NCBI RefSeq assembly: GCF_003815535.1
Contig: NZ_RPFZ01000001.1
Span: 1,798,001 to 1,862,000 of the forward strand
Direction: 5' to 3'
DNA length: 64,000 nucleotides
From: Aurantiacibacter spongiae
Lineage (GTDB): Bacteria > Pseudomonadota > Alphaproteobacteria > Sphingomonadales > Sphingomonadaceae
A program made the translations under genes and the position numbers. How positions within the stretch are numbered: the first letter of the stretch is position 1; the number at the start of each line of letters is the position of its first letter. This document shows, piece by piece, positions 10,282 through 33,043 of the stretch. The notes under the pieces were generated by a model that had not been told where the DNA came from, did no database searches, and saw nothing but the letters and a program-made list of their open reading frames with translations.

Positions 10282-10498
10282 AGAGATCGACAAGGGAGCG
10301 ACCGAAACCCGCCGGGTGACGCGGCTTATTCGCTTGCCCGAAGTGCAGCACCGCGTCGGGCTTGGCCGTTCGACGATTTATCGCTGGATGAGCGAGGGCA
10401 AGTTTCCGAGGCCTGTGCAGCTCGGAGGATACTCGGTTGCGTGGGCGGAAAGCGAGATCGACGGGTGGGTGGCCGATCGAATTACGCACTCGACATAG
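10274..10498 (+). CDS. AlpA-family DNA-binding protein
   Basis: A 74-residue AlpA/excisionase-like protein. The motif RLIRLPEVQHRVGLGRSTIY followed by RWMSEGKFPRPVQLG and WAESEIDGWV is the complete AlpA winged-helix signature. The GTG at 10274 is chosen because AAGGAGG ends 5 bases upstream, an excellent ribosome site located inside the end of the preceding gene. AlpA proteins act as transcriptional activators or excision factors in prophages, integrative elements and plasmids, which fits a mobile origin for this end of the window. No integrase is visible here. Confidence 0.8.
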   Translation: MGEEIDKGATETRRVTRLIRLPEVQHRVGLGRSTIYRWMSEGKFPRPVQLGGYSVAWAESEIDGWVADRITHST

Positions 10499-10539
10499 CC
10501 ACCTCGACGTATCCCCTGTGACCAATAGAAAGCGCTTAG

Positions 10540-10911
10540 CTACCGTGCAGTAGATTGATCAGCTGGGGAGGGTGCCTCGCGAAGCCGGCGGGCGCGCTCG
10601 ACGAAGTGTTCCATCTGCGTGGCAGCGTGCAAGGTAAGCGGATGCGGCTTCGCATCGGCACGCGGGGATATGAATTCCGCGATTTCTTCGATTGCTGCCA
10701 GCTGATTGGCGCTGGCCTTCGACAGAAGGCCGAGCACCATGTTCTCAAGGGCGATCACCCTGATGCGCAACTGGATCATTTCGGCATCGGAAAGTGGCGG
10801 AATATCCCATTTCTCACAATCGGCAGCGAGCGCTTCCTGCGGCCCGCAGGGCAATGCCCCGCCTTCGTCTTCCCAGCGCGACAGCGCACCGGCTTTTCCC
10901 GTTTCCGACAT
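10540..10911 (-). CDS. hypothetical protein near the transfer region
   Basis: A 123-residue soluble protein that I cannot assign. It starts MSETGKAGALSRWEDEGGAL, and its middle contains a helical stretch with a hydrophobic heptad-like pattern (LRIRVIALENMVLGLLSKAS). There is no signal peptide or membrane span. It is convergent with the AlpA gene and is followed upstream by the hairpin-rich region. Its position between a transfer operon and possible cis sites suggests a mobilisation or regulatory accessory protein; this is a guess from context. Confidence 0.6.
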   Translation of the reverse strand: MSETGKAGALSRWEDEGGALPCGPQEALAADCEKWDIPPLSDAEMIQLRIRVIALENMVLGLLSKASANQLAAIEEIAEFISPRADAKPHPLTLHAATQMEHFVERARRLREAPSPADQSTAR

Positions 10912-11196
10912 ATGCGGTTCCTTTCATAAGCACCGAGGCGATTGTCTGCGCGCTGCTCACATAGCACAAAGCCATGCCGGGACGCGCCTGGCACGGCGAC
11001 AGCGAAGCCGGGCAAACGGAACCCCGCGCGTCGGGTTGGTTTGCACGCGGGGTTCCTGAACGGCCCCTTGGGGGCACCTGCGACCCGCAGGGCGTCGGGG
11101 GGAGGCGGGGCCGTCCTTTCCTGATCTTGCGATGTTCGTTTGTGTTTTTGCCGAGGGTATCTCCTGGATAGCCGTGTCACCGGGAAACGCGTCCGA
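10912..11196. other. GC-rich hairpin cluster, possible oriT or element end
   Basis: A gene-free 285-base stretch with several inverted repeats. The best is GAACCCCGCG (11019-11028) pairing perfectly with CGCGGGGTTC (11046-11055) across a 17-base loop. Nearby are GCCCC/GGGGC around 11062-11075 and CCTGCG/CGCAGG around 11077-11090. Further right is TATC-TCCTG-GATA (11159-11171), which loosely resembles nick regions of transfer origins. It separates the conjugation block from the copper block. The oriT idea is inference only; no relaxase is in the window. Confidence 0.35.
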
Positions 11197-11604
11197 TCAC
11201 ATACCTTCCATGTCGTGATCGGCCATCGAGGACATGTCATGACCCGCATGGGGATCGGCCGGCTGGGTCGCCTCGCTCGCGGGTTGCGTGCGTGTTGCTG
11301 GAGGTGCGGGTGTGGCGGTTGCGCGTGATGCGGGCGGGACAGCGCGCCGTGACGCAGGCGTGGCGGCGCCAATTGTCGAAAGAGCGTCCTCCCGAGCGGT
11401 CGCTGCCTCATCTTTGGAGGGAGAGGCTGCCGGATCGGCAAGACCCGCCTCGGGTGCCGTGCCAGCCACCACCGCAGCTTCGCCCATAGGCGAAACCTCA
11501 GCAGCCGGTGTGCTCTCCTGCGCTTGGTCACAAGCGGCGAGAGCGAACGTCAATGGCGCGGTCGCGAGAAATGCTATCGCGGTGTTCGATTTCAGAATTC
11601 GCAT
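11197..11604 (-). CDS. Met/His-tailed lipoprotein, probable metal-binding protein
   Basis: A 135-residue exported protein. The signal peptide ends FALAAC, giving a plausible lipobox (Cys28 region). The middle is low-complexity Ala/Pro/Thr-rich and likely disordered. The C-terminus HAGHDMSSMADHDMEGM is a compact Met/His/Asp cluster of the kind seen in periplasmic copper binders. The start at 11604 follows GAAGGAG. It lies 14 bases after the DUF2231 gene and is probably co-transcribed with it from the ECF-type promoter at 12341-12365. No enzymatic domain is seen; copper binding is inferred from composition and neighbours. Confidence 0.65.
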   Translation of the reverse strand: MRILKSNTAIAFLATAPLTFALAACDQAQESTPAAEVSPMGEAAVVAGTAPEAGLADPAASPSKDEAATAREDALSTIGAATPASRRAVPPASRATATPAPPATRTQPASEATQPADPHAGHDMSSMADHDMEGM

Positions 11605-11618
11605 GTTATTCAACTCCT

Positions 11619-12290
11619 TCAGAGCCACGAAACGCCAAGATGGTCCGGTCCGTGCGCGAGCTCGCCGCCAAGGAACCCCTGGATGAGAACGAGTGCCGCC
11701 ATGGAGAAGATCGACGCGCGCAACCATGCGCGGCTCTGGCTCGGCCTGCTCGCGAGGTATGCCATCGCAATACCGAGAACCGCGATCAGCATACCGGTCC
11801 ATCGATGGACTTGCATGACAGTATCGCCGCCGAACCACAGACCGGTGTGAATCCATCCGAACAGAACTGCGACGACTGCGCCGATTGCTCCGCCGTAGAC
11901 GAGTACGCGCACCGCACTTTCCAGGCCCGCTCCTTTCCGGCGCATCACGAACAATTCGGTGGCCGCAGCCATGAAAAACAAGGCGATCGGGAAGTGGATC
12001 GTTGCCGGATGCAGCTTTTTCAGTACGGCCATGACGCCGGTTTCGCTCTCATCCGCATGGCCACCGGCCTCGTCATGGGCTGCGCCCGCTTCATCGTGCG
12101 CGCCGGAGGACTCGCCAGCATCCGCAGTCTCGCCCATCTGCGCCATGGCCGCCTGGTCGTGCACATCGCCATTGGTGGCAGCAGGCGCGGCGCTCGCCTC
12201 TTCGCCGTGCTTTTCGTCGCCATGAGCCTGAACGGGTCCGACGAAGAGCAGGCTTGCGGCGAGCAGCGCCAGAAATGAGGGGGCTTTCAT
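11619..12290 (-). CDS. DUF2231-type membrane protein with His-rich N-terminus
   Basis: A 223-residue membrane protein. A signal peptide (LLAASLLFVGPVQA) is followed by an exposed His/Glu/Asp-rich segment (HGDEKHGEEAS and HDEAGAAHDEAGGHADES). Then comes a four-span domain beginning LKKLHPATIHFPIALFFMA, the DUF2231 hallmark, where the His in HPATIHFP is conserved. DUF2231 proteins are found with c-type electron carriers and in metal-resistance loci, but their activity is not known. The acidic/His region would sit in the periplasm and could bind metal. The start at 12290 excludes an antisense-like leader. It is preceded by a good ECF-type promoter. Confidence 0.75.
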   Translation of the reverse strand: MKAPSFLALLAASLLFVGPVQAHGDEKHGEEASAAPAATNGDVHDQAAMAQMGETADAGESSGAHDEAGAAHDEAGGHADESETGVMAVLKKLHPATIHFPIALFFMAAATELFVMRRKGAGLESAVRVLVYGGAIGAVVAVLFGWIHTGLWFGGDTVMQVHRWTGMLIAVLGIAMAYLASRPSQSRAWLRASIFSMAALVLIQGFLGGELAHGPDHLGVSWL

Positions 12291-12340
12291 GTCTCGTATG
12301 TCTCCCGACCCTGCAGTTAAAGTGCGACCTATGTGCCTGA

Positions 12341-12365
12341 TACGCACGGCAGCCGCGTGCCCCTC
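12341..12365 (-). promoter_or_regulatory. ECF-type promoter for the DUF2231/lipoprotein unit
   Basis: Read on the minus strand, GAGGG (12365-12361) and CGTA (12344-12341) are separated by exactly 16 bases, the same layout found ahead of four other units around the ECF sigma gene. The A/T-rich stretch AAATTAATGC precedes the -35-like block. Its downstream end is about 50 bases from the DUF2231 ATG. Confidence 0.65.
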
Positions 12366-12520
12366 GCATTAATTTGATAGTTCAGCGCGACTGAAGTGCG
12401 CCCGGGTGGTCACGCTTGCTGGCGGCATCATCGCGATCGTCGAACGCATTCGGCTCCTGGCCGCGTTCGGCCTGGCGAACGAGGGTAAGGCGTTCGCCCA
12501 CGCGAATAAGCCCCATGGGC

Positions 12521-13252
12521 TCAGGCGAGCTTGCTCTTCTTTGCGCGGCGGCGCAGCCTCGGCATCCGGTTCGCCAGCAGGACGAAACCCGACAGGGCTA
12601 TGATCGTGCCGCCAATGCCGAACAGCAGCAGCCACCAACTGTTGATGCGGTCGCGCTCGGTCCAGTCCATGATGTGGAGGCCCCAGATGAAATCGAACAG
12701 GCGCCATGTATCGCTGCGCGCCGCCCCGAGCGTGCCGCTGGCGGCATCGATGTAGATGCGCGTCGAAGCCTCGTCAGCATAGGTGACCTGCCAGGCCGGA
12801 AAAGGGCCGCGAAACTCGGTTCCGATGGGGTCATCGACGATCCGTGCGGCCTCGATGGTCGTGCGCGGCCCGGTCCATGCGCGCAAGGCGATGGATTTTG
12901 CCGTTGCCGCCGAGATGGGGGAGAGTTTACGCCCAGTCACCGGATCGTGGAGGCTCACGCTACCGTCAACCTTGCGGACCTCGGTCACGGCATCGCCGTC
13001 GAGCGAACGTGTCGTTACCGCTGCAAGAGTACCGTCGTTTGCGACCCAGGCCGGGAGCGGGGCATCGGCGGGCAGCGCCTCTTGTTCACGCGAAACGACA
13101 TGTTCGGAGCGAACTTCTTCCAGGTCGAGAAACGACATGAGGGCGCCGGTTCCCATCCACAAGAGAACCTGGACACCGACGAAAATCGCCAGCCATTTGT
13201 GGATCTTGCTGCCGAGCACATGCAGGCGCAGCTTCAGCGACGGCGTTGCCAA
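12521..13252 (-). CDS. PepSY-domain membrane protein
   Basis: A 243-residue protein with an N-terminal span (WLAIFVGVQVLLWMGTGALM), a periplasmic PepSY-like region (WQVTYADEASTRIYIDAASG) and a C-terminal span (WWLLLFGIGGTIIALSGFVL) ending in a basic tail. This topology matches the PepSY-associated membrane proteins found with metal or iron uptake and reductase systems. It is the last gene of the copA-copB-SnoaL-PepSY series. A role in metal reduction or in electron transfer to the periplasm is possible but not shown; no heme His pairs are clear. Confidence 0.72.
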   Translation of the reverse strand: MATPSLKLRLHVLGSKIHKWLAIFVGVQVLLWMGTGALMSFLDLEEVRSEHVVSREQEALPADAPLPAWVANDGTLAAVTTRSLDGDAVTEVRKVDGSVSLHDPVTGRKLSPISAATAKSIALRAWTGPRTTIEAARIVDDPIGTEFRGPFPAWQVTYADEASTRIYIDAASGTLGAARSDTWRLFDFIWGLHIMDWTERDRINSWWLLLFGIGGTIIALSGFVLLANRMPRLRRRAKKSKLA

Positions 13253-13279
13253 CCGGTGCTACCTCTTCGAAAGCCGTAA

Positions 13280-13798
13280 TCAGTTGCGCGGCGCGCGCGA
13301 CGAGGAATGGTACTGGACGATTCTCCACCCGTCCGCATCGTGAGCAAGCACCGATGTCGCCACGCCGTCGCGCTCGATCACCCGGCCATCGCTAAGTTCG
13401 ATGCGATAGCCATACGTCTCATAGGCATGGGCCATGTGCCCCATCCGGGTGACGGTCAGCGTGGGGTCGGTAAAGGTGAAGCTCACAATCGCGCCGAGCT
13501 CGGGGCCCAAATGGTGCTCCATGTAATTGGCAAAGCTTCCTTCGGCCTTGCCATTCTCGAAGATCGCCGAGTCCTCGGCGAAGAGCGCGCGCATTGCCTG
13601 CGCGTCGCGCGCTTCAAGAGCGGTGCGATAGGCCTTGAGGGTTTCTTCAGCGCCCGCGACATCGTCCGCCGAAGCGTCCATCGCGTGCATCTGATGGTTC
13701 GCATGGGAAGAGTGGCCCATCTGCTGCGCGAAGGCTGGCAGCGGTATCAGCGTGGCAACAAGCGCAGTCGCCGCGATGCGTGTCAAAGTCTTGGTCAT
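13280..13798 (-). CDS. exported NTF2/SnoaL-like protein
   Basis: A 172-residue periplasmic protein with a signal peptide ending PLPAFA and a His/Met-rich mature start (QQMGHSSHANHQMHAMDAS). An NTF2-like fold follows, with AYRTALEARDAQAMRALFAE and the ending DADGWRIVQYHSSSRAPRN, as in DUF4440/SnoaL proteins. Such proteins occur beside copA/copB in many sphingomonads, but no reaction is established. The N-terminal His/Met cluster suggests metal binding on a small scaffold. It lies 24 bases after copB. Confidence 0.72.
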   Translation of the reverse strand: MTKTLTRIAATALVATLIPLPAFAQQMGHSSHANHQMHAMDASADDVAGAEETLKAYRTALEARDAQAMRALFAEDSAIFENGKAEGSFANYMEHHLGPELGAIVSFTFTDPTLTVTRMGHMAHAYETYGYRIELSDGRVIERDGVATSVLAHDADGWRIVQYHSSSRAPRN

Positions 13799-13822
13799 GG
13801 TAGTTCTATCCTTTTTGAGATT

Positions 13823-15136
13823 TCAGAACCAGAATCGCACACCGACGACATAATTGGTGACGCTCGGATCCTCTCCGGCGGCCCGCGCAAAATCCGCGCT
13901 GTCGCCGATGCGCCATTCCTGGGAAACGCCGACATAGGGCGCGAATTCGCGTGCGAACTCGTAGCGAAGACGCAGACCTGCCTCGATCCGGTCGAGGCCA
14001 GCGCCAATGCCGAGTTCGGGAATATCCTGAGCGGAAAGTGCGATTTCGGCACGCGGTTGAAGGATCAGCCGCTGCGTGATGCGCTGATCAAGTTCGCCCT
14101 CAAAACGCGCCGTCACATCGCCCTTGGTGGAGACGAAGGCCGCGGCATCGACCTCGAACTGGTAAGGCGCGATCCCTTGGATACCGATAACCGCGTGCGT
14201 GCGTTCCGGACCGGTCAGGTCCTGGCGAACACCCGCCTGGAAATCGAAGAAGGGCGCAATGGCGCGGCTCCAGAGCGCCTGGACCTCGGCGCCTTCTATG
14301 GGTTCGCCGAAGCTGCCCTCACCCTCGGACTTGAACCAGAATTTGTCGATGTCGCCGCCATAATATCCCTGGATGTCCCACAGATATCCATCCTTCCCCT
14401 CGCGGGCGCGGTACTCGAGCCGGTCGCCCTGAAACCAGAAGCGCATTCCTCCGTCGGTCTCGCGGACAAGCTCGCGGCGCGCTTCGTTCATGGCTTCCTC
14501 GCCCCAGATGGCGACCGCCGCGCGCGCTGGGCCGCTCCCTGCTTCTGGAGGAGGCGGCAGCAGCGGGATATCATCGTCCGAGCCCATCTGCATCGCCGAA
14601 TGGTCCATGCCCTGCCTGTCCTGCGAAGGCGTCTCCCCATGGTTCATCTGGCTGTGATCCATCTGCCCATGGTCCATCGACGAACTGGCCTCCGCCTGAC
14701 CCATCTCGCCGTGATTCATCTGCGAATGATCCATCGCGCCTTCGGCGGGCTTGCCCTGCGGCATCGAGCCGTGATCCATTCCTTCATGACTTTCGGGCGA
14801 TGCCTGTGGACGGGCAGCGTCCACAGGCATTGTCATGCCAGAATGGCCATCCTGAGCGGTCATCGCACCATGATCCATGGTTGAGTGATCCATCTGCGAG
14901 CGGTCCATGGCGGCTTCAGGTTGAGCAGCCGGTTCGCATGCTCCATCTGCAACCGGATGCCCCATCGCGCGATGGCGCTCGGCTTCTTCCTCGCACTTCG
15001 TCTTCGCGTCAGCCTGCGCCTCGGCGCTTTGCTGCGGCTCCGCCGGCGAATGACCGGCATGCTGCGCCGCCGCGGGGGAGGCGAGAACTGAGCCGGCTGC
15101 GACCGATGCGAGCAGGCTGACAATACGAATTTTCAT
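13823..15136 (-). CDS. copB: CopB, copper resistance outer-membrane protein
   Basis: A 437-residue CopB-family protein. After the signal peptide and a linker, about 160 residues are dominated by Met/His repeats such as MDHSQMNHGEMGQ and MDHSTMDHGAMT. The C-terminal 240 residues form the CopB barrel domain, starting AIWGEEAMNEARRELVRETD and ending VTNYVVGVRFWF with a terminal Phe, as in outer-membrane barrels. CopB binds or sequesters copper at the outer membrane alongside CopA. The start overlaps the CopA stop (ATGA). The repeat region is unusually long and may vary in copy number between strains. Confidence 0.9.
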   Translation of the reverse strand: MKIRIVSLLASVAAGSVLASPAAAQHAGHSPAEPQQSAEAQADAKTKCEEEAERHRAMGHPVADGACEPAAQPEAAMDRSQMDHSTMDHGAMTAQDGHSGMTMPVDAARPQASPESHEGMDHGSMPQGKPAEGAMDHSQMNHGEMGQAEASSSMDHGQMDHSQMNHGETPSQDRQGMDHSAMQMGSDDDIPLLPPPPEAGSGPARAAVAIWGEEAMNEARRELVRETDGGMRFWFQGDRLEYRAREGKDGYLWDIQGYYGGDIDKFWFKSEGEGSFGEPIEGAEVQALWSRAIAPFFDFQAGVRQDLTGPERTHAVIGIQGIAPYQFEVDAAAFVSTKGDVTARFEGELDQRITQRLILQPRAEIALSAQDIPELGIGAGLDRIEAGLRLRYEFAREFAPYVGVSQEWRIGDSADFARAAGEDPSVTNYVVGVRFWF

Positions 15137-16941
15137 GCTTCGCTCCCGTCGGGATTGGCGACCGTGACGATCTGAAACATCCCGGCATGCATGTGGTAGA
15201 GAAGGTGACAGTGGAAGGCCCAGTCGCCCGGCTCGTCCGCCGTCAGGTCGAACTGCGCGCTGCCACCCGGCTGCAGGATTACCGTGTGCTTGAGCGGTTG
15301 ACGATCGGCCGGCGCGCCATTGACCAGCTCGAAGAAATGACCGTGCAAGTGAATGGGGTGCGCCATCATCGTGTCGTTGACGAGCTTCACGCGCACGCGC
15401 TCGTTATAGGCGAAACGGATCGGCTCGTCTGAGACGGCGGAGAACTTCTTGCCGTCGAACGACCACATGTAGCGCTCCATATTGCCGGTCAGATGAATTT
15501 CCATTCGCCGGGACGGCGTGCGGCCCTCGCGGTGTGGAGTCAGAGCGCGCAGCTTGCGATAGTCGAGCGTACGATGCGGCACATCGGCGAGACCGATGCC
15601 GGGATCGCCCATGCGGTCGACCGGGTTCATCGAGACCATGTCGAGACCGGGCCCGACCTTCACATCGGGCGGCAGAAGCGACGTGTCGCGCATCTGCATC
15701 CCCGACATGCCGGCCATGCCTGCCATCTCGGATTGGCCGGACGAACCATGATCCATCCCCGCCATGTCGCCGCCACTTCCGTGGTCCATGCCCGACATGC
15801 CGGCATCGCCAGACGAGCCGTGGTCCATGCCGCTCATGCCCATGTCGGCCATGGTCAGAAGCGGCGGATCGCGCAGCGGCGGAATGGCGGCGCGAGCGCC
15901 GGGTGCGCTCGCGAGTGTGGCAATACCCATGCCCGAGCGGTCCATCGACTCCGCGACCAGCGTGTAGGCTTGTTGCGCGCCCGGCGTCACGACGACGTCG
16001 TATGTCTCGGCCACACCGATCTGGAACTCGTCGACCTCCACCGGCTCGACGTTCTGCCCGTCCGCCTGAACGATGGTCATCGGCAGGCCGGGAATGCGAA
16101 TATTGAAGAAGGTCATGGCGCCGGCATTGATGAAGCGCAGCCGCACGCGTTCGCCCGGGCGGAAGAGGTATTCCAGATTGTCGAGCGGGCCATGGCCGTT
16201 CAGAAGATAGGTATAAGCCGCGCTCGACACGTCGAGGATGTCCGTCGGCATCATGCGCATTTTCGCCCACATCCGGCGATCCTCGCCCGAAAGCGGGTAA
16301 TCGTCGGTCCAGGTGTTCTGGTTGTAGTTGAAGTAGCCTTCGCCCTTCTTGAGCTTGTCGAAAATCGTGTGGGGCGACATTTCGCTGAATTCGCTCAGCA
16401 CCACGATATATTCGCGGTCGGCCTGGACCGGATCGGGTCCGGCGGGGTCGACCACGATCGCGCCGTAATGCCCGGCCTGCTCCTGCAGGCCGCTATGCGA
16501 GTGCCACCAGTAGGTACCCGACTGGCGAACCGGAAACTCGGCGGTGAAGGTCTCTCCCGGTTTGACGCCGGGGAAGCTCACGCCGGGCACTCCATCGAGC
16601 TGAAACGGCACGAGCAGACCGTGCCAGTGGATCGAGGTATCTTCCTCGAGCTGGTTATGGACATTGAGCCGGACGGTCGTGCCTTCCTGCAATCGCAACA
16701 GCGGACCAGGAATAGTGCCATTGACGGCGATCGCGCCGCCGCGCCTGTTGCCGGTCGCGAAGGCCGATCGGGCAACGGTGAGGTCGATATTGGGGCCGGA
16801 TATCTCGTCCAGCCCCTTGCGGGCGTTACCTGCGAGGATGTCCGCGCCCCGTGCCCAGGCAGGCATCGCCCCGGCAAGGCCGAGCAGACCCATTCCTCCT
16901 GCTCCGGCTCCGAGAAACTTGCGTCGATTGACGGCGATCAT
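15133..16941 (-). CDS. copA: CopA, periplasmic multicopper oxidase of copper resistance
   Basis: A 602-residue CopA-type multicopper oxidase that oxidises and binds copper in the periplasm. It begins with a Tat signal (NRRKFLGAGAGGMGLLGLAG). Copper-ligand motifs are HWHGLL and HSHSG in the first cupredoxin domain, and HPIHLHGHFF and HCHLLYHMHAGM in the last. Between residues about 370 and 420 lies a Met-rich insert with repeats of MSGMDHGS, which probably collects Cu(I). It is the first gene of the copA-copB series; an ECF-type promoter reaches back into the sigma gene's stop codon. Length is normal for CopA. Confidence 0.93.
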   Translation of the reverse strand: MIAVNRRKFLGAGAGGMGLLGLAGAMPAWARGADILAGNARKGLDEISGPNIDLTVARSAFATGNRRGGAIAVNGTIPGPLLRLQEGTTVRLNVHNQLEEDTSIHWHGLLVPFQLDGVPGVSFPGVKPGETFTAEFPVRQSGTYWWHSHSGLQEQAGHYGAIVVDPAGPDPVQADREYIVVLSEFSEMSPHTIFDKLKKGEGYFNYNQNTWTDDYPLSGEDRRMWAKMRMMPTDILDVSSAAYTYLLNGHGPLDNLEYLFRPGERVRLRFINAGAMTFFNIRIPGLPMTIVQADGQNVEPVEVDEFQIGVAETYDVVVTPGAQQAYTLVAESMDRSGMGIATLASAPGARAAIPPLRDPPLLTMADMGMSGMDHGSSGDAGMSGMDHGSGGDMAGMDHGSSGQSEMAGMAGMSGMQMRDTSLLPPDVKVGPGLDMVSMNPVDRMGDPGIGLADVPHRTLDYRKLRALTPHREGRTPSRRMEIHLTGNMERYMWSFDGKKFSAVSDEPIRFAYNERVRVKLVNDTMMAHPIHLHGHFFELVNGAPADRQPLKHTVILQPGGSAQFDLTADEPGDWAFHCHLLYHMHAGMFQIVTVANPDGSEA

Positions 16942-16973
16942 AAAGGGCTCCTGACGTGGCGTTTACCGTTACT

Positions 16974-16998
16974 TACGCGCGCGCCCAGCCAACCCCTC
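16974..16998 (-). promoter_or_regulatory. ECF-type promoter of copA, overlapping the sigma gene stop codon
   Basis: On the minus strand GAGGG (16998-16994) and CGTA (16977-16974) are 16 bases apart, preceded by AAAAACTTT. The stop codon TGA of the sigma factor gene is part of the -35-like block, so the copA promoter starts inside the end of the upstream gene. The copA ATG lies 33 bases downstream of CGTA. Confidence 0.75.
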
Positions 16999-17557
16999 AA
17001 AGTTTTTCGAAGCGCTCCTTCAGCCTGTTGCGCGCGCGGTATACGCGGGTTTCGATCGCCTTTTCGGTCGTTCCGAGAAGATCGGCTGCCTCGGCCTGGC
17101 TACGCCCCTCGATGGTCACGAGCACGAGGGCTTCGCGCAGCCTTACGGGCATTCGTGCGATCTCGGCCTGAACGAGATTGAGCTCTTCCCTGGAAACGGC
17201 CAACGCTTCAGGACCCGGCAAATCGTCGGCGATGGAATGGAGTCCGTCATCACCCGACAGTCCGAAAAAGCCCGCGACCTTGCGCCTGCGCAAACGGTCC
17301 CGGCAGCGGTTGAGAACGACGGTTGTCAGATAGGGTCCGATCGGCTTGTCCGGATCGAGCCGATGGCGCGTCAGCCACACCGAAGCGAGGCTGTCCTGAA
17401 CAACGTCCTCGGCCTGAGAAGGAGAGGAAAGCATGCGTGTCGCAAGCGCGAGAAGCCGACCGGTTTCATGCTCGACGAGCTTGCTGAAAGCCCGCTTGTT
17501 ACCGGCCCTCACCTGCGAGACAAGGGCCTCATCCGGAGTGTCGCCCGCCCCCGACAT
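16997..17557 (-). CDS. ECF sigma factor (CnrH-like)
   Basis: A 186-residue extracytoplasmic-function sigma-70 factor. Region 2 covers about residues 10-85 (HETGRLLALATRMLSSPSQA, then EDVVQDSLASVWLT), and region 4 about 125-180 (MPVRLREALVLVTIEGRSQA, then EAADLLGTTEKAIETRVYRA). It follows a periplasmic sensor and a short membrane protein in the order of cnrY-cnrX-cnrH from Cupriavidus, with similar gene sizes. It should direct RNA polymerase to the GAGGG-N16-CGTA promoters around it, including its own. It lies directly upstream of copA, so copper is the likely signal; that is inference. Confidence 0.9.
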   Translation of the reverse strand: MSGAGDTPDEALVSQVRAGNKRAFSKLVEHETGRLLALATRMLSSPSQAEDVVQDSLASVWLTRHRLDPDKPIGPYLTTVVLNRCRDRLRRRKVAGFFGLSGDDGLHSIADDLPGPEALAVSREELNLVQAEIARMPVRLREALVLVTIEGRSQAEAADLLGTTEKAIETRVYRARNRLKERFEKL

Positions 17558-17563
17558 GGCGCT

Positions 17564-17998
17564 TCAGTCGCGCGGGTCGCGGGTCAGGGCGTCGGAGACC
17601 TTGCGGTCGAACTGGCGTTGCTGCTCGGGTTCGAGAATTTCACGCATGTCGAAGACATGCCGTACCGTTGCTTTCTGCAGATCGCCCATACGCGCATGCA
17701 CCTCGTCGATCGCGGCCGAAACCTCGGGACCGTACTCGTGCTCATTTTCCATCGCCTGGGCGAGCCGGGCATTGGCTGCGCGCGCCGATCCTTCGAGCCG
17801 TGCCCTTTCGACAGCGAAACGGGCCTCGAGCGCATCGAGACGCTGCTCCTGGTCGGCCGTCAGGGTGAGCTCGTCGTGCACGAAATCGTGGAGGCCGGAG
17901 CCGGCCTCGTGATTGGCCCAGCGATCCGCGGCAATCGCGCCGAGGCATCCTGCAAGTGCTGCGAGAAGCACCGCGAGAACGATATGCGTCGTCTTCAA
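17564..17998 (-). CDS. periplasmic metal sensor (CnrX/Metal_resist family)
   Basis: A 144-residue protein with one N-terminal membrane anchor (VLAVLLAALAGCLGAIAADR) and a periplasmic four-helix domain. LTADQEQRLDALEARFAVER and MREILEPEQQRQFDRKVSDA are typical of the CnrX/ZraP-like heavy-metal-sensing fold. HEAGSGLHDFVHDEL near the anchor holds three His residues suited to metal binding. The gene sits 6 bases upstream of the sigma gene and 3 bases after the CnrY-like gene. By analogy with CnrX it would hold the anti-sigma factor inactive or active depending on metal occupancy. Confidence 0.82.
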   Translation of the reverse strand: MKTTHIVLAVLLAALAGCLGAIAADRWANHEAGSGLHDFVHDELTLTADQEQRLDALEARFAVERARLEGSARAANARLAQAMENEHEYGPEVSAAIDEVHARMGDLQKATVRHVFDMREILEPEQQRQFDRKVSDALTRDPRD

Positions 17999-18001
17999 AC
18001 C

Positions 18002-18298
18002 CTATTGCTCCACATGGAGGAGCGCCGATGGGGACAGCTGTTCGCCGAGGATAAGACCCTCGCCAAATGACGCGGAAGACGTGCCATAGCCGCCGGGCCA
18101 ACCGCTCGTTCCGGCGCCAGCTCCAAGCCCGACGACGAACAGACCGACGAACAGAGCCGTCCGGCGGCGTCGGTCGGCGATTTCGCCAAGCTGTCCGGCG
18201 CGCTGCCAAACGCCATCCATGAAGTCGGCGGGGACCTCGCTGGTGCCGGTGGCGGAAAGGGTTCCGAGCACCGCATCAAGAGAGTGATTGTCACGCAT
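18002..18298 (-). CDS. probable anti-sigma factor (CnrY-like)
   Basis: A 98-residue single-span protein. The cytoplasmic N-terminus (about 45 residues, with VPADFMDGVWQRAGQLGEIA) is of the right size to clamp a sigma factor, the span is TALFVGLFVVGLGAGAGT, and the C-terminal part is periplasmic and short. Sequence similarity to known CnrY is not obvious to me; the call rests on size, topology and position as the first gene of a cnrYXH-like operon. It starts at 18298 after AGGAG and is driven by an ECF-type promoter. Confidence 0.68.
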   Translation of the reverse strand: MRDNHSLDAVLGTLSATGTSEVPADFMDGVWQRAGQLGEIADRRRRTALFVGLFVVGLGAGAGTSGWPGGYGTSSASFGEGLILGEQLSPSALLHVEQ

Positions 18299-18330
18299 CC
18301 GAAAAACTCCTGTGGGTTGCACGTGTCCTA

Positions 18331-18355
18331 TACGCGCTCGCCTGCACAATCCCTT
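18331..18355 (-). promoter_or_regulatory. ECF-type promoter of the sigma/sensor operon (autoregulation)
   Basis: On the minus strand AAGGG (18355-18351) and CGTA (18334-18331) are 16 bases apart, preceded by GAAGTTT. It points at the CnrY-like gene, 33 bases away. Its upstream edge is shared with the divergent promoter at 18370-18394, the two -35-like blocks lying 14 bases apart. Confidence 0.7.
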
Positions 18356-18369
18356 AAACTTCTTTTTTT

Positions 18370-18394
18370 GAGGGAATGTCCACCGCCATACGTA
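18370..18394 (+). promoter_or_regulatory. ECF-type promoter of the methyltransferase unit
   Basis: On the plus strand GAGGG (18370-18374) and CGTA (18391-18394) are 16 bases apart, preceded by AAACTTCTTTTTTT. It lies 37 bases before the methyltransferase ATG and back to back with the sigma operon promoter. Confidence 0.75.
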
Positions 18395-18431
18395 ACCGAG
18401 ACGGGTCTGTCAGAATCGGGTCGAACCCGGG

Positions 18432-19136
18432 ATGAATGGGAACCAGCTCGTGAACAATATCACCGCACCTGAAGATCACGGCGAATTTACGCCTCTTCTT
18501 GGCAAGAGCTTTCTGACGCCCCTTTACGACCGGGCGATCGGTCTGTTCACCCGCGAACATCTCTGGCGACAAAGGATTGTCGAAGAACTGCACCTTGTCC
18601 CCGGCGACCGGGTGATCGATGTTGGCAGCGGAACCGGCACTCTTCTCAAGGCCTTGATGACGGATTGTCCGGAAGCGGGTCTGATCGGTGTCGAACCCGA
18701 CCAGGAGGCGCTCGCGCTTGCGCGGCGCAAGTTTGGCGCGGGAGCCGATCTCGTGAAATGGCACAATGGCTTTCTCGAAAGCCTCGAGCTGCCCGCAGGG
18801 TGGCGGCCGAACAAGATCGTCAGCAGCCTCGTCCTGCACCAGGTTCCCTTGCGCAAGAAGCAGGCAATCCTGGAAACCATCGAAAGCTTGCTCGTGCCAG
18901 GCGGAACCGTGTTGATCTCCGATTATATGAAGCAGGATAGCCCACTCATGCGGAGCCTCTTCCGGGCGACCGTCCAGTCGCTTGACGGCGTAAGCGACAC
19001 GCAGCCCAGCGCCGACGGCGAGGTCGAAAAACTATTCGCCGAAATCTTCACCGAGCCATGCCTGCTCCACCGGTTCCCGACGGTGACCGGGACGATCTCG
19101 CTATGGCGCGGATACAAGAAAGGAATTGCACAATGA
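18432..19136 (+). CDS. class I SAM-dependent methyltransferase
   Basis: A 234-residue cytoplasmic methyltransferase. Motif I is VIDVGSGTGTLLKAL (about residues 61-75), followed by LIGVEPDQEALALARRKFG and by KIVSSLVLHQVPLRKKQAIL with VLISDYMKQDSPLMR. This is the UbiE/arsenite-methyltransferase-like fold, but the cysteine set of ArsM is missing, so the substrate is unknown. It starts the unit driven by the ECF promoter at 18370 and overlaps the DUF411 gene by 4 bases. Methyltransferases of this type are seen next to DUF411 genes in copper islands of other proteobacteria, from general knowledge rather than a search. Confidence 0.82.
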   Translation: MNGNQLVNNITAPEDHGEFTPLLGKSFLTPLYDRAIGLFTREHLWRQRIVEELHLVPGDRVIDVGSGTGTLLKALMTDCPEAGLIGVEPDQEALALARRKFGAGADLVKWHNGFLESLELPAGWRPNKIVSSLVLHQVPLRKKQAILETIESLLVPGGTVLISDYMKQDSPLMRSLFRATVQSLDGVSDTQPSADGEVEKLFAEIFTEPCLLHRFPTVTGTISLWRGYKKGIAQ

Positions 19137-19597
19137 TCTGGAAAAAGCCTGCCCTGTTCCGGCGATCGATTAGCGGCGCGGCCTTGCTCGTGCTGGCAGC
19201 CTGTTCGAACGTGGCACAGGCAGCGACCTATACGATGTTCCGGGATCCAGGATGTGGGTGCTGTCTCAGCTGGGCAGGCCATGTCGAAGACGGGATGAAC
19301 ACGAAGGTGGCATCGGTCGACAGCAACGACATGGCGGCGATCAAGACCGCGCGGGGCGTACCCCAAGAGTTATGGTCATGCCATACGATGGAGGTCGATG
19401 GATACATCATCGAAGGTCACGTGCCTGCAGAAGCCGTCGCCAAGCTTTTGCGCGAACGGCCCGCCGGCGTTGCCGGCCTCGCGGTTCCGGGAATGCCGCT
19501 GGGATCTCCCGGCATGGAGGCAGGAGACCGGGTGCAGCCCTTCGAGGTCATCGCCTTTGGTTCAGCCGGACGGAGCGTCTTCGCGTCCTTTCCGTGA
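19133..19597 (+). CDS. DUF411 metal-binding protein
   Basis: A 154-residue exported DUF411 protein. The signal peptide ends near LVLAACSNVAQA and could be lipidated. The motif MFRDPGCGCCLSWAGHVE carries the family's CxCC cluster, followed by ELWSCHTMEVDGYIIEGHVP and PGMPLGSPGMEAG, both conserved. DUF411 proteins bind copper and are induced by it in several bacteria. The ATG at 19133 overlaps the methyltransferase stop. A hairpin follows about 125 bases downstream. Confidence 0.88.
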   Translation: MIWKKPALFRRSISGAALLVLAACSNVAQAATYTMFRDPGCGCCLSWAGHVEDGMNTKVASVDSNDMAAIKTARGVPQELWSCHTMEVDGYIIEGHVPAEAVAKLLRERPAGVAGLAVPGMPLGSPGMEAGDRVQPFEVIAFGSAGRSVFASFP

Positions 19598-19720
19598 GTG
19601 TGTGGAACCACACCATGCGTCACCGTGAAAGGGATGAAGGTGATGAAGATTATTTGCGGGAAGCGACACAGAACCCGGTAAAACCGGGACAGGCTGTAAG
19701 AAGCCTATCGAATTCTCGCA

Positions 19721-19756
19721 GGGTCCGGGGCTGGCTGCCCCCACCGCCCCGGACCC
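19721..19756 (+). terminator. strong GC hairpin between DUF411 and DUF5676 genes
   Basis: GGGTCCGGGGC (19721-19731) pairs perfectly with GCCCCGGACCC (19746-19756) across a 14-base loop. No T-run follows, so classical intrinsic termination is doubtful; it may instead protect the 3' end of the upstream mRNA or attenuate reading into the next gene. Confidence 0.45.
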
Positions 19757-19800
19757 GTCCAATTGCATGATTTCAGCACGCACGAAGTGGGAGAAATGCG

Positions 19801-20082
19801 ATGGTAAAAGGATCAATCAAGAGCTCGATATTCGCATGGGGCTGGACGCTTAGCGTGTTCCTGCTTGTCAGCTATCTCCTTTGCATTGCCTTTGGAGTCC
19901 TCGCGCCCGAGCGTTTTCACATGCATGAAGCCTGGGCTCCGTTGCTGCCATGGTTCGAATGGCTAACGCCGCGCGGGTTCCTCGCCGGAGCGGTGGGGAG
20001 CTTTCTCTATGGCTGGTACATCGCACTCATCGCGGTTCCGCTCTATCGGTATTTCCGGAGACGAACTGGTAATTCGGTCTGA
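19801..20082 (+). CDS. small two-span membrane protein (DUF5676-like)
   Basis: A 93-residue inner-membrane protein with spans near residues 10-34 (WTLSVFLLVSYLLCIAFGVL) and 57-80 (PRGFLAGAVGSFLYGWYIAL). LAPERFHMHEAWAPLLP lies in the loop between them. It matches the short DUF5676 membrane proteins found in copper and silver islands, whose role is unknown. It starts at an ATG preceded by GGGAGAAATGCG. It may be read from the same promoter as the methyltransferase unit if the hairpin upstream is leaky. Confidence 0.72.
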   Translation: MVKGSIKSSIFAWGWTLSVFLLVSYLLCIAFGVLAPERFHMHEAWAPLLPWFEWLTPRGFLAGAVGSFLYGWYIALIAVPLYRYFRRRTGNSV

Positions 20083-20162
20083 TTTCCCGATGCCCTTCGC
20101 GGGACAAGACGTTTTGCACGCGAAGCCATTAGCCCGGTAGCCTGAAAAAACGAAAAAAGGGA

Positions 20163-20331
20163 ATGCGCGATCTACAGGACAAAGCCTTCACAGAGCGCTC
20201 GAACGCTAACCGCCCATGCGGTCCTTGGTGCTGCCCTCGGCATCACGATCCTCCATCCGGTAACCACCCTCGTCTTCTGGTACGAGTTCGGTCCGTCGCA
20301 CGACACCGGCAGCAATACTGCCATTGGGTTC
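20163..20331 (+). other. probable out-of-frame 5' end of the AlbA_2-type gene
   Basis: In the frame of the following gene, the DNA upstream of its first ATG still encodes a credible membrane span (AVLGAALGITILHPVTTL, then VFWYEFG) and has no stop back to 20145, but it offers no ATG, GTG or TTG. A well-placed ATG with AAAAAAGGG just ahead of it sits at 20163 in another frame. A one-base shift near 20200 would join them. Confidence 0.5.
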
Positions 20332-20982
20332 ATGATCGGCCGGCTGGTAAATGCTTTCGCGTTCGAAATGCTTCCCATGAGCGCCATCTACGCGGTGATC
20401 GGCGGCGCCCTTGGTCTGGGATTTGGCATGTATCACATGCGGTTGGCGCGAGCTCAGTCCAAGGTACTTTTTCTCGAACGCGAACTCGACGAGGAGTTGC
20501 CGCTTCTTATCGCACGCGGCGAGGGCGAGCGATTGGAATTCAAATCGTCCTTGCGGTGGGACAGGCGTGAGAACCGGGTCAACCGGTCACTCCAGCAGGT
20601 CGTACTCAAAACGGTTGCCGGCTTTCTCAACCATGAGGGCGGAACACTGCTTATCGGGGTTGGAGACGATGGGAACATCACTGGCATTGAAGCCGATATG
20701 CAGACACTCAAACATGCCAATCGGGATGGGTTCGAGCGCCTTGTGATGGACCTCGTGAAGGATGGTTTCGGCGGTCACGCGTGCGCTTTGGTCCATTGCC
20801 GTTTTCACGAAATGACAGAAAAGACGGTATGCCGGGTCATTGCTGAAAGGAGCGCTGATCCTGTCTACCTCGTAGAGGGAGGTACCGCGCGCCTGATGTT
20901 ACGTATCGGAAACAGCACGCGTGAGCTCGACGTGCGCGAAGCGCAGGCACATTTGCGCAATCGATCCCCCGGTCGAGCTTAA
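20332..20982 (+). CDS. membrane protein with AlbA_2 (Schlafen-type) domain
   Basis: A 216-residue protein as written from the first in-frame ATG. A membrane span near residues 17-34 (MSAIYAVIGGALGLGFGM) is followed by the AlbA_2/DUF4062-like nucleic-acid or nucleotide-binding domain, recognisable in EGERLEFKSSLRW, TVAGFLNHEGGTLLIGVGDD and GNSTRELDVREAQAH. AlbA_2 proteins are often regulators or defence-related; the membrane-anchored form suggests signalling from the membrane. The true gene likely starts further upstream with a second span. It is unclear whether the gene belongs to the ECF regulon. Confidence 0.72.
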   Translation: MIGRLVNAFAFEMLPMSAIYAVIGGALGLGFGMYHMRLARAQSKVLFLERELDEELPLLIARGEGERLEFKSSLRWDRRENRVNRSLQQVVLKTVAGFLNHEGGTLLIGVGDDGNITGIEADMQTLKHANRDGFERLVMDLVKDGFGGHACALVHCRFHEMTEKTVCRVIAERSADPVYLVEGGTARLMLRIGNSTRELDVREAQAHLRNRSPGRA

Positions 20983-21189
20983 TCCGGCTGCTGGGCACGT
21001 CAGATTGATCGAACAGGGCCAGTTACCTCTCGCGAGACCTGCTAGAGAAAATTCACAGTGGGCCACCCTGGCGATACGCGTCGCCTCCTATCGACGCACC
21101 TTGTGCTAAGAGAAGCCTCGCGAAAAGCGGACTCCCTATCTTGCCAAACCGCCCCCTGGGGCAGGCGCGCACCATGTCGAAACTTTTTT

Positions 21190-21214
21190 GAGGGGTGAGG
21201 CACTACCTAACGTA
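21190..21214 (+). promoter_or_regulatory. ECF-type promoter of the permease/channel unit
   Basis: On the plus strand GAGGG (21190-21194) and CGTA (21211-21214) are 16 bases apart, preceded by GAAACTTTTTT. It is the nearest promoter-like sequence to the APC permease start, 50 bases downstream. Confidence 0.75.
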
Positions 21215-21264
21215 CTGTCTGGCGTGATGTTTCTCGGACGGGAGGACATCGACAGGGGAAAGAC

Positions 21265-22614
21265 TTGCAGACAGATGGCGACGATCAACAAAACGAGAGT
21301 GCGGCCTCGATAACATTGCTGGGCGGTGTCGCGATGGGAACCGGCGTCATGATCGGCGCCGGTATCTTCGCACTGACTGGCCAGATTGCCGAACTGGCTG
21401 GACCGCTATTTCCGCTTTCGTTTATTGCCGGCGCGCTGGTTACTTCGCTCGCCGCCTACAGCTACATCAAGATGTCGAACCGCTGGCCCTCCTCGGGCGG
21501 CATCGCGATGATCCTTCAGAAAGCCTACGGACCAGGCGTCGTGGCAGCCTCGGCATCGCTCCTGATGGCGCTGTCGATGGTCATCAACGAAAGCCTGGTC
21601 GCTCGAACCTTCGCGACCTATGCCTTGCGGCCCTTTGGGCTCGAGAGCAGCGGCATTCTGGTTTCCGTCGCGGCACTGGCGCTCATCGTCTTCGCCTATT
21701 TTGTGAATGCGGCAGGCAACAAATCGGTCAGCGGTTTCTCTCTCGTCATGTCGGCGATCAAGATCGGCGGCATCGCCCTGTTCGCGATTGCGGCGATCTG
21801 GGCCAGCGGATTTTCGGGCGGCGCCTTCTCAGAGCCAGTCGCGCTTTCGGGTCTCGACGCGTTGCTCGCGTCGGTCGCCTTCTCGATCCTCGCGTTCAAG
21901 GGTTTCACCACCATCACCAACAGCGGCGGCGAAATCATCGATCCGCACCGAAATGTTGGCAGAACCATTATCATTTCGATCACAGTATGCGTGGTCGTCT
22001 ACCTTCTGGTCGCGGTGGCGGTCGGAGCCAGCCTCAGCACTTCGGAAATAGCGCAAGCGCGCGATTACTCGCTTGCGGCAGCTGCGCGCCCCGCGCTCGG
22101 AGAGCTTGGGTTCTATTTCACAGTCGCAATCGCGATCGCAGCCACGACCTCGGGTGTCATCGCCAGCGTTTTCGCCGTTTCGCGAATGCTGACGATGCTG
22201 ACCGAAATGAAGATGATCCCGCATAGCCATTTTGGGATGAAGGGACCGATCCGCAGTCACATGCTGGTCTATACCGTCGTGGTCGCCGGCACGCTCGCGG
22301 TCCTGTTCGATCTTTCGCGGATCGCCTCGCTCGGAGCGTTCTTCTATCTCGTAATGGACATGCTCGTGCATTGGGGCGTGCTGCGCGGTTTGCGGGAAGA
22401 AATAGGCGCGCGCGCCTGGATCCTTTGGTCGGCCCTGGTGGCAGACGGCGTAGTCCTGACAGCTTTTGCCCTCGCCAAGCTCGAAACCGACCCTGCGGTC
22501 GTCGCCTATGCGGTCGCAGGTATCGTCGCAGTGTTCGGAGCCGAATGGTTCTATCTCCGTCGAAATCCCGCGCTTCGTGAAATGCCTGCCACTCACGATG
22601 GAGATTATAGATGA
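21265..22614 (+). CDS. APC-superfamily amino acid/amine permease
   Basis: A 449-residue inner-membrane transporter with about 12 predicted spans. The first span carries GTGVMIGAGIFALTGQ, the APC substrate-binding motif, and FKGFTTITNSGGEIIDPHRN lies at the conserved loop after span 6. The protein begins at a TTG with GGGGAAA ahead of it, and no ATG exists in frame before the first span, so TTG is well supported. The substrate is not evident. It heads a unit of overlapping genes driven by an ECF-type promoter. Why a metal-response unit includes such a permease is not clear; export or uptake of a thiol or polyamine is one option. Confidence 0.85.
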   Translation: MQTDGDDQQNESAASITLLGGVAMGTGVMIGAGIFALTGQIAELAGPLFPLSFIAGALVTSLAAYSYIKMSNRWPSSGGIAMILQKAYGPGVVAASASLLMALSMVINESLVARTFATYALRPFGLESSGILVSVAALALIVFAYFVNAAGNKSVSGFSLVMSAIKIGGIALFAIAAIWASGFSGGAFSEPVALSGLDALLASVAFSILAFKGFTTITNSGGEIIDPHRNVGRTIIISITVCVVVYLLVAVAVGASLSTSEIAQARDYSLAAAARPALGELGFYFTVAIAIAATTSGVIASVFAVSRMLTMLTEMKMIPHSHFGMKGPIRSHMLVYTVVVAGTLAVLFDLSRIASLGAFFYLVMDMLVHWGVLRGLREEIGARAWILWSALVADGVVLTAFALAKLETDPAVVAYAVAGIVAVFGAEWFYLRRNPALREMPATHDGDYR

Positions 22615-23024
22615 TCGCCGCACTTGTGCTCGCCATTGCACTTTTTCTGGCTTCGGTCGGCGCGCATCTTTCGATTCTCGGTGTCGGGCATCGCATGCTC
22701 GACGCACGCCGAAATTTCTCTGCCAAGCTTGGGGTCGCGCTTCTCGTCCTGGCATCGCACCTGCTTGTCGCGACGCTCTTCGCTGGCGGTTTCTGGCTGG
22801 GCGCGGAGCTGGGCCTCGGCGGGTTCGACAAGACGCCGGCGATGAGTGCGATGGACTATTTCTATTTCTCGCTGATCAACGTGACCACACTGGGGCTCGG
22901 CGACATCTACCCGACCGAGCACCTGCGCGTCATTGCCGGCGTCGAAGCCTTGACCGGCTTCGCGCTCATCAGCTGCTCGGCACAACTGTTCTGGACCATG
23001 ATGAAGGAAGGAGAAAACGCATGA
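22611..23024 (+). CDS. two-span ion channel with TLGLGD filter
   Basis: A 137-residue membrane protein of the Ion_trans_2 type. The spans are about residues 2-24 and 42-65, then a pore loop, DYFYFSLINVTTLGLGDIYP, and a last span (VEALTGFALISCSAQLFW). The selectivity filter reads TLGLGD in place of the usual TVGYGD of K+ channels. This change keeps the two glycines and the Asp and is found in some bacterial channels. It has no cytoplasmic regulatory domain. It overlaps both the permease and the DUF305 gene by 4 bases, so the three are made together. Confidence 0.82.
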   Translation: MIAALVLAIALFLASVGAHLSILGVGHRMLDARRNFSAKLGVALLVLASHLLVATLFAGGFWLGAELGLGGFDKTPAMSAMDYFYFSLINVTTLGLGDIYPTEHLRVIAGVEALTGFALISCSAQLFWTMMKEGENA

Positions 23025-23548
23025 CTGAAAGTACATCCCACTCGGACAAGGGAGGGGGCGGCAACTACTGGCGGTTTATGGCCATGGTATCCACCTCGAC
23101 CGTGATCATGTTCTTCCTGATGTATGCCAACAGCTTCGACATGGACGACGTGTTCTGGAGCGAAACGCGCTTCTGGATGATGTTCGTCATGGGCGCGATG
23201 ATGATGGTGGTCATGCTGCTCTTCATGTGGGGCATGTACAAGGACCGGACCAAGAATTTCATCATCCTGGGTGTCGGAGCCGTCGTCTTCGCACTCGCGC
23301 TATGGCTCGTACGCAGCCAGACCACGGTCGACGACACCGAATACATGGCCGCAATGATTCCGCACCACTCGATCGCGATCATGACCAGCGAAAGGGCGAG
23401 CCTGAAGGATCCGCGTGTCCGCGAACTTGCTCAGGCCATCATCGTCGCGCAGCGGCGTGAGATCGCCGAGATGAAATACCTCATCCAGGACATCGAGGAG
23501 AACGGCCCGCGCACCGAAGAACGCCTGCCCGAGGAGATGCAGCAATGA
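23021..23548 (+). CDS. DUF305 membrane protein
   Basis: A 175-residue protein with three hydrophobic spans in the first 110 residues, rich in Met (MMFVMGAMMMVVMLLFMW), followed by the DUF305 helical domain with AAMIPHHSIAIMTSERASL, the family's MxxHH motif. The Met-rich spans and the HH pair would suit copper handling. DUF305 proteins are widespread in metal islands but have no settled function. The start at 23021 follows GAAGGAGAAAA and overlaps the channel stop. Confidence 0.8.
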   Translation: MTESTSHSDKGGGGNYWRFMAMVSTSTVIMFFLMYANSFDMDDVFWSETRFWMMFVMGAMMMVVMLLFMWGMYKDRTKNFIILGVGAVVFALALWLVRSQTTVDDTEYMAAMIPHHSIAIMTSERASLKDPRVRELAQAIIVAQRREIAEMKYLIQDIEENGPRTEERLPEEMQQ

Positions 23549-24033
23549 ACAAGATCGCACTTCTGACTCTTGCAGCCCTTCCGCTGGCGGCCTGCAATAC
23601 CAACACCGCGATCGGTAATGACCGCGAAGCACAGCTCGATCCTCCGGCAACGGCAGCTCCGATGGAGAGCACTGCGAGCGCTCTTGCCAATCTCAGCCCC
23701 GGCCTCATGCTGCCCGAGACCATGAGCGACGCGGACCTCGCCGCGCTGGGAGCCGAGAACACGTGCCAGTTCCGCCTGACCGAGGTCGCGTTCCCGTCAT
23801 TCGTCTACGACAACAGCGGTCGCGGGGCGATCAAGATCAATGGCAAACTGATCCCCGTCACGGCAAGCGCCTCGGGTGAGTATGCGAATGGTGAGCTTCG
23901 TATCCGTACGCGCCTTCTCGATGACGAAGGAGACGCGGGCCTGCAAATGCAGGAGCTCATCGTCGCCGGCCCCCGGATGAAGGACGAGTTCGGGTTCTGG
24001 GGGTACACGACCTGCGGCAACAGCGAAGCGTGA
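23545..24033 (+). CDS. predicted lipoprotein of unknown function
   Basis: A 162-residue exported protein. The signal peptide ends LAALPLAAC, a standard lipobox with Cys17. The mature part carries NTCQFRLTEVAFPSFVYDNS and ends WGYTTCGNSEA; two remaining cysteines could form a disulfide. I do not recognise a family. It overlaps the DUF305 gene by 4 bases, so it is part of the same unit. The ending DEFGFWGY is unusual for a disordered lipoprotein and suggests a folded domain. Confidence 0.68.
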   Translation: MNKIALLTLAALPLAACNTNTAIGNDREAQLDPPATAAPMESTASALANLSPGLMLPETMSDADLAALGAENTCQFRLTEVAFPSFVYDNSGRGAIKINGKLIPVTASASGEYANGELRIRTRLLDDEGDAGLQMQELIVAGPRMKDEFGFWGYTTCGNSEA

Positions 24034-24126
24034 ACACGAGCGAGCGGGCGCCGGCTTCCGTCGGTGCCTGCTCCATGATCATGATCGGCCCGGCACGCGC
24101 GGCCGAATTTATAATGAGGTGCTACA

Positions 24127-32678: not shown

Positions 32679-33043
32679 TCCTGCTCGCGGCACCGCTGGC
32701 GCTTGCAGCTTGCGACGCTGCAGACGACAGCACCGGGACCATGATGTCTGACGAGATGGCGAACTCGGACAGTATGCCCATGTCAGGCGAAATGCCGATG
32801 GCGGAGGAGACCGGCGGCGAGCAGAGCGCCAGCGCGGAGGGAACGGTAACAGACATCGATCCCGGGGCGGGCACCGTGACCATCGAGCACGGTCCGGTCG
32901 AAAGTATCGGATGGCCCGCGATGACCATGACCTTCGAAGCCGACGCGCAAATCCTCGAACAGGTCAGTGTCGGTGAGGGAATAGCCTTTGAATTTCGTAC
33001 TGGAACCGAAGGCAGCGTCGTTACCTCGGTAACGCCGCGATAG
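32657..33043 (+). CDS. cusF: CusF-like periplasmic Cu/Ag chaperone
   Basis: A 128-residue exported protein. The signal peptide ends LALAAC, a lipobox (Cys19), so it is probably a lipoprotein. A Met-rich linker ([12 protein letters not shown]) leads to the CusF fold, with [20 protein letters not shown] and [16 protein letters not shown], which holds the Trp and two Met ligands. It delivers Cu(I) to CusB/CusA. The gene begins inside the last 22 bases of cusA, suggesting translational coupling. The same domain is also fused to CusB. Confidence 0.9.

Follow-up and report, generated by a model that had tools for sequence, protein, structure and literature searches.

Five promoters of one layout around a CnrYXH-like sigma factor locus point to a copper-resistance regulon in Aurantiacibacter spongiae

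A 64,000-nucleotide stretch of the Aurantiacibacter spongiae genome (contig NZ_RPFZ01000001.1, positions 1,798,001 to 1,862,000; hereafter the window) carries, in order leftward from position 18298, the genes of a 98-residue protein, a CnrX-like sensor, an extracytoplasmic function (ECF) sigma factor, CopA and CopB. We propose, with a probability of about 0.9, that this locus forms a transmembrane sigma circuit of the CnrYXH type, which controls a local copper-resistance regulon through five promoters. The small membrane protein would act as anti-sigma and hold the sigma factor at the membrane; the sensor, on binding periplasmic metal, would relieve this hold, and the freed sigma factor would with RNA polymerase transcribe from the five promoters, each composed of an RAGGG box (-35), 16 bases and CGTA (-10). 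Besides its own operon, the sigma factor would control copA-copB, DUF2231, the permease/channel/DUF305 unit and, in the divergent direction, the methyltransferase/DUF411 unit. The metal release, the anti-sigma role and the contact between sigma and promoters are modelled on CnrYXH: according to an excerpt of PMC7689651, metal binding by the sensor loosens there the anti-sigma hold and frees sigma, and CnrX senses nickel and cobalt. In the locus studied here the gene content suggests copper as the main inducing metal.

A pattern scan of the window finds RAGGG-N16-CGTA at the five promoters (Table 1), with a spacer of exactly 16 bases at all of them; spacers of 13, 14, 15, 17, 18 and 19 bases gave 1, 0, 1, 0, 0 and 0 matches. 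The expectation per 64 kb was 0.52 on average and 3 at most in 100 shuffles, against six copies observed, five of them in promoter position. An A/T tract immediately precedes the RAGGG box at four of the five sites; at the fifth, 12365, it is weaker (AAATTAATGC). With a weight matrix trained on 75 distinct sites—from loci whose sigma is at most 74% identical, the own clade being excluded—the five sites rank top at 22.8–32.4 bits, the next best place reaching 12.8 bits and ten simulated windows peaking at 11.4 bits. The first-pass annotation of this DNA had described the five sites with their strands and spacer, the unit at which each points, the A/T stretch ahead of four of them and a chance expectation below about one per window, all of which was borne out. 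Its wider proposal, an ECF sigma regulon around a cnrYXH-like locus, holds in that, as far as sequence tells, the promoter set goes with the sigma gene and the five units appear as its targets. The GAGGG box of the predicted copA-copB promoter overlaps the TGA stop codon of the sigma gene. If the CnrH promoters are taken as the model, with the start 12 bases beyond the C of CGTA, coordinate arithmetic gives leaders of 24 bases for both the anti-sigma gene and copA, 29 for the methyltransferase, and 42 for both DUF2231 and the permease (from its TTG start).

Sigma homologues (E ≤1e-25) occur in 115 of the 298 genomes of the family, that of the window included; many are less than 45% identical and not all are of this type. 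We followed the motif in two samples with partly shared strains: 40 loci from 35 genomes, out of 56 other sigma matches of at least 44% identity, after setting aside mainly near copies and matches close to contig ends; and the best 80 of 559 loci in named genomes. In the 40 loci (791,797 bases) spacer 16 gave 143 matches, each other spacer from 10 to 23 bases 1–16, and a reversed control pattern 3–20 per spacer; the corresponding values for the 80 named loci were 309, 3–19 and 4–37. Of the 40 loci, 36 have the motif upstream of the anti-sigma gene, 37 upstream of copA and 37 on the divergent side; with spacer 16 it precedes the anti-sigma gene in 73 of the 80 named loci, follows the sigma gene in 72 and lies on the divergent side in 70. 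Conservation extends to the 32 named loci with a sigma of at most 46% identity (28, 30 and 26 respectively), and column counts over 30 diverged loci indicate that the boxes and the preceding A/T tract are conserved and the 16 spacer bases are not.

A copA gene (at least 40% identity) accompanies 74 of the 80 named loci. The copper-output CnrYXH module is common in the Sphingomonadales sampled and occurs in some Caulobacterales; the culturable marine relatives Croceicoccus pelagius and Qipengyuania citrea are among those with the locus. In a sigma tree, on which no claim rests, the copA-linked rows are intermixed with six rows without copA. Behind the same divergent promoter, plasmid relatives have as first annotated gene DUF2231 (L072) or CopC (L073, L075 and L077). 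Two records call for a remark: one contig of Novosphingobium subterraneum has two copies of the locus (L171, L172), which agree in motif pattern and encode identical sigma proteins; and a record titled Arthrobacter sp. TPD3018 (L177) has a sigma identical to those of two Sphingomonas records, perhaps from a mislabelled or contaminated assembly.

The converse comparison was made with genomes devoid of the sigma gene. Of the 183 genomes in which no sigma match reached E 1e-25, the first 20 listed were searched: 17 have copA (22 stretches, counting pieces), and no motif with a spacer of 15, 16 or 17 bases was found within about 1.5 kb on each side of copA in these 17.

The proteins of the locus resemble those of CnrYXH to different degrees. 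Among solved structures the sigma factor matches CnrH best (4cxf, E 9.5e-28; next SigW, 5.5e-16), with 40.3% identity to CnrH by tblastn; its region 4 covers residues 128–179 of 186, and no C-terminal extension follows (Pfam). CnrX/NccX are nearest to the sensor by sequence in the PDB (E 4.1e-22) and occupy fold-match ranks 1–15 for its AlphaFold2 model (mean predicted local distance difference test, pLDDT, 87.9), whose N-terminal helix 2–30 is a putative membrane anchor. The predicted metal site is intact: H37, H41, E58, H114 and M118 are invariant in all 32 aligned sequences, CnrX included, and equal the CnrX ligands H42, H46, E63, H119 and M123 minus five; we take H42, H46 and H119 to be the CnrX numbers, consistently with the constant offset of 5, E63 and M123 being drawn from sources. 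The sensors of this group have, in addition, a motif E86-H87-x-(Y)-G-P, in which, over 25 genome sequences, Y is nearly invariant and the other four named residues entirely so. These four are found in five of the six plasmid sensors adjoining copA (L072–L077), the exception being that of Asticcacaulis (L076), and Y in four. CnrX and the sensor of Cupriavidus sp. USMAA2-4 are devoid of it. In the model this E-H tip forms the turn between helices 48–86 and 91–121, 27–28 residues away from E58 and H114, and so lies outside the five-ligand site. As for the 98-residue protein, it has one hydrophobic stretch, discerned by eye, and the right place and size for a CnrY-like anti-sigma, on which grounds we retain it as the candidate.

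Comparison with the Cupriavidus systems CnrYXH and NccYXH clarifies what is shared. The order Y-X-H, the sensor fold and the five metal ligands are common to them and to our locus, whose sigma is nearest to CnrH; and RAGGG...CGTA boxes precede Y and directly follow H. On pMOL28 of Cupriavidus metallidurans we find AAGGG-N17-CGTA before cnrY and GAGGG-N17-CGTA before cnrC, with CGTA at -12 to -9 from the transcription starts that an excerpt of PMC9045368 reports 24 and 25 bases upstream of these genes, as non-RpoD and CnrH-controlled. On our reading the boxes of the window would be CnrH boxes whose spacing is shorter by one base. The same boxes being present at reported CnrH starts, the promoter type is not new, contrary to the first description of the sites. 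Our module is rather a copper-linked variant of the CnrYXH kind, which differs by its output, its spacer and its close divergent pair: copA-copB and other copper genes take the place of the cnrCBA nickel/cobalt pump—what stands behind the sigma gene is copA-copB and no cnrCBA-type pump—, the spacer is 16 instead of 17, and a back-to-back divergent promoter is present. Other differences are an anti-sigma not recognisably CnrY and the conserved E-H tip. The pairing of spacer 16 with copper and 17 with nickel is a tendency and not a rule: we rejected it as a rule because the comparison covered only two nickel-type loci, those of pMOL28 and Cupriavidus sp. USMAA2-4, and because it is broken by L176, a diverged locus with pump genes and spacer 16, and by four of the 80 named loci with 17.

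Several observations weigh against the proposed circuit, or against copper as its signal. In those same four loci it is the anti-sigma promoter that has spacer 17, and in six of the 80 copA is absent from the fetched stretch, some stretches ending at a contig end. The 98-residue protein has no similarity to CnrY, either by BLASTP (no match) or by profile-profile comparison (hhalign probability 0.1). A strong RpoD promoter is also reported before cnrY in the excerpted text of PMC9045368, and a table in PMC11647585 labels as RpoD a start 23 bases before the same gene. The sixth copy of the motif, considered below, shows that an exact match alone does not prove a promoter. Finally, as the sensor ligands are those of a nickel/cobalt sensor, copper is not readable from the site; and nickel raised the CopA, CopB and CopC transcripts of Sphingobium sp. 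ba1 (excerpt of PMC5557971, transcripts alone), which keeps nickel in consideration.

The last two points favor a circuit of the same build induced by nickel, by cobalt or by more than one divalent metal, the copper genes then belonging to a wider periplasmic metal response. We regard this as rather unlikely: 74 of the 80 loci have copper genes as output, copA-copB and not a cnr-type pump stand behind the sigma gene here, the E-H tip common to most copper-linked sensors is absent from CnrX, and a structure of copper-bound CnrX exists (3epv, by its title).

The back-to-back arrangement of two promoters raises another alternative. Between 18331 and 18394 the boxes of the sigma-operon and divergent promoters are 14 bp apart and form CCCTT...TGAGGG; in 60 of the 64 named loci having both promoters the distance is 9–16 bp, so close that two polymerases could hardly bind at once. 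In L039 the divergent site lies some 960 bases further off and was scored as missing; both sets of boxes are intact there, as if something had been inserted between them. Such pairs look palindromic, and the boxes might be read as the operator of another, perhaps dimeric, regulator, the divergent sites being the inverted repeat CCCTCA...TGAGGG. We hold this for very improbable: the copA, DUF2231 and permease sites are single-armed with CGTA after 16 bases, the gap within the pair varies while the spacer of 16 does not, and the same boxes occur at the reported CnrH starts.

The sixth exact copy of the motif was overlooked by the first-pass annotation. It lies in the end of a CusF-like open frame (32657–33043), correctly oriented for the downstream gene, a second multicopper oxidase frame whose ATG (33045) follows after 45 bases; this position speaks for it. 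It is devoid of an A/T tract, and the weight matrix gives it less than 9 bits. Its retention in six near copies of the island is uninformative because the DNA there is 90–100% identical; the three diverged loci where a CusF relative turned up, of 43–51% identity (L062, L064 and L067), are without it. We consider its role as a promoter unlikely. Of the 20 exact copies in the complete genome (2,855,855 bases, two contigs), the window accounts for 6; the 14 copies outside the window all fall within open frames of at least 100 codons (mechanical calls, on one or both strands), and none of the 14 has a T run directly 5′ of the box. Looser searches of the genome gave no indication of a wider regulon: TGAGGG-N16-CGTA with at most one mismatch has 74 matches where the reversed control has 104, so that nothing can be read from it, and spacer 17 with a preceding T gave 2 matches against 8 in the control. 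Weak inverted repeats and a tRNA scan yielded nothing of use.

Two-component systems are the best-known regulators of copper-resistance copAB operons. We looked for such regulators in 41 genomes, sigma-positive and sigma-negative, that of the window included: none has a CopS/CusS-type kinase (TIGR01386) over the curated cut-off. Below this cut-off the genome of the window has 14 kinase matches, and in the sigma-negative genome G008 one such kinase is encoded some 0.6 kb upstream of copA. With CopS over the cut-off in neither group, the comparison cannot discriminate whether CopRS has been replaced. CueR matches exist in all 41 genomes and pass the cut-off in four, our genome not among them; two CueR-like matches at 40277 and 57272 of the window are below it.

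A bolder scenario could be built on the copper-linked circuit: that a nickel/cobalt CnrYXH circuit was re-tooled into a main envelope copper sensor of Sphingomonadales replacing CopRS, that the E-H-x-(Y)-G-P tip, as a second conserved site, gives copper selectivity, and that the divergent promoters, with one shared A/T tract, act as a single two-way ECF promoter tying the sigma output to the resistance genes. We consider it possible but doubt it more than we believe it.

Three other ECF sigma factors are linked to copper. A comparative study from 2023 on copper signalling in marine bacteria, in its excerpt, treats CorE of Myxococcus xanthus as the copper ECF sigma, and SigAb and SigF respond to copper too, as partial texts have it. 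By a similarly partial account CorE regulates a copper ATPase as well as a multicopper oxidase, and it senses copper through its own Cys-rich C-terminal extension, without an anti-sigma; our sigma, by contrast, ends after region 4 without such an extension and has two membrane partner genes. SigAb, from Acinetobacter baumannii, is copper-induced and has adjacent anti-sigma genes, as our sigma probably does; its boxes are GTCAAC/CGTT, its direct targets are itself, relA and a small RNA, and the excerpt on it mentions no CnrX-like sensor, unlike our locus. SigF of Caulobacter crescentus is, like ours, alphaproteobacterial, and is induced by copper, with boxes GTAACC-N16-CGAA, the partner NrsF and other targets, in the extract of its description. 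Among the literature matches listed no title announces a copper-linked CnrYXH system; an earlier description in the ECF classification literature is possible. If our proposal is true, copAB is driven in many Sphingomonadales by an ECF sigma that has an external metal sensor; CnrX and these sensors, having the same five ligands, would make a natural pair for a direct test of how periplasmic sensors choose their metal, and the boxes allow the regulon to be read in many genomes.

The genes of the five units are listed in Table 1. Further right, between 26774 and 36996, the window encodes a second multicopper oxidase, a P-type ATPase and the proteins of a CusCBA/CusF-like pump. The only exact motif in this interval is the doubtful sixth copy, so that these genes may be under other control.

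Table 1. Predicted promoters and genes of the sigma locus and its putative regulon (positions in the window)
Feature	Position	Strand	Evidence
Promoter of sigma operon, AAGGG-N16-CGTA	18331..18355	-	motif scan, conservation, matrix
Promoter of copA-copB	16974..16998	-	motif scan, conservation, matrix
Divergent promoter, methyltransferase/DUF411 unit	18370..18394	+	motif scan, conservation, matrix
Promoter, permease/channel/DUF305/DUF6692 unit	21190..21214	+	motif scan, matrix
Promoter, DUF2231/small lipoprotein unit	12341..12365	-	motif scan, matrix
Sixth exact RAGGG-N16-CGTA copy, doubtful	32975..32999	+	motif scan
ECF sigma factor, CnrH-like, 186 residues	16997..17557	-	Pfam Sigma70_r2 and r4_2; PDB match CnrH 4cxf
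CnrX-like periplasmic metal sensor, 144 residues, TTG start	17564..17998	-	Pfam Metal_resist; CnrX/NccX best in PDB
Small anti-sigma candidate at CnrY position, 98 residues	18002..18298	-	position, size, conservation
copA, multicopper oxidase of copper resistance	15133..16941	-	TIGR01480, 776.8 bits (cut-off 478.95)
copB	13823..15136	-	Pfam CopB, E 2.8e-87
SnoaL/DUF4440-like, downstream of copB	13280..13798	-	Pfam
PepSY/PepSY_TM membrane protein, downstream of copB	12521..13252	-	Pfam
DUF2231 membrane protein	11619..12290	-	Pfam
SAM methyltransferase	18432..19136	+	Pfam
DUF411 protein	19133..19597	+	
APC-family permease, TTG start	21265..22614	+	
Ion-channel-like membrane protein	22611..23024	+	
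DUF305 protein	23021..23548	+	
DUF6692 protein	23545..24033	+	

The 17.7 kb from 9499 to 27225, copper cluster included, are 98.6% identical to L031, in the genome of another genus; and among six sampled genomes of the same genus five have no sigma match and one has only a 50% match. Together these make a recent horizontal transfer likely. Near-identical loci—also 10 of the 40, with a sigma 96–100% identical to that of the window—are not independent; nevertheless, that the sites reflect chance, or conservation by recent descent only, is refuted by the expectation of 0.52 per window and by the diverged loci, where the sites are kept and the spacers scrambled. To the left of the copper cluster, the interval 2080–7374 bears conjugation genes (TraC_F_IV, TrbI, DsbC-like), and an AlpA-type regulator is encoded at 10181–10498; the cluster may be part of an integrative conjugative element.

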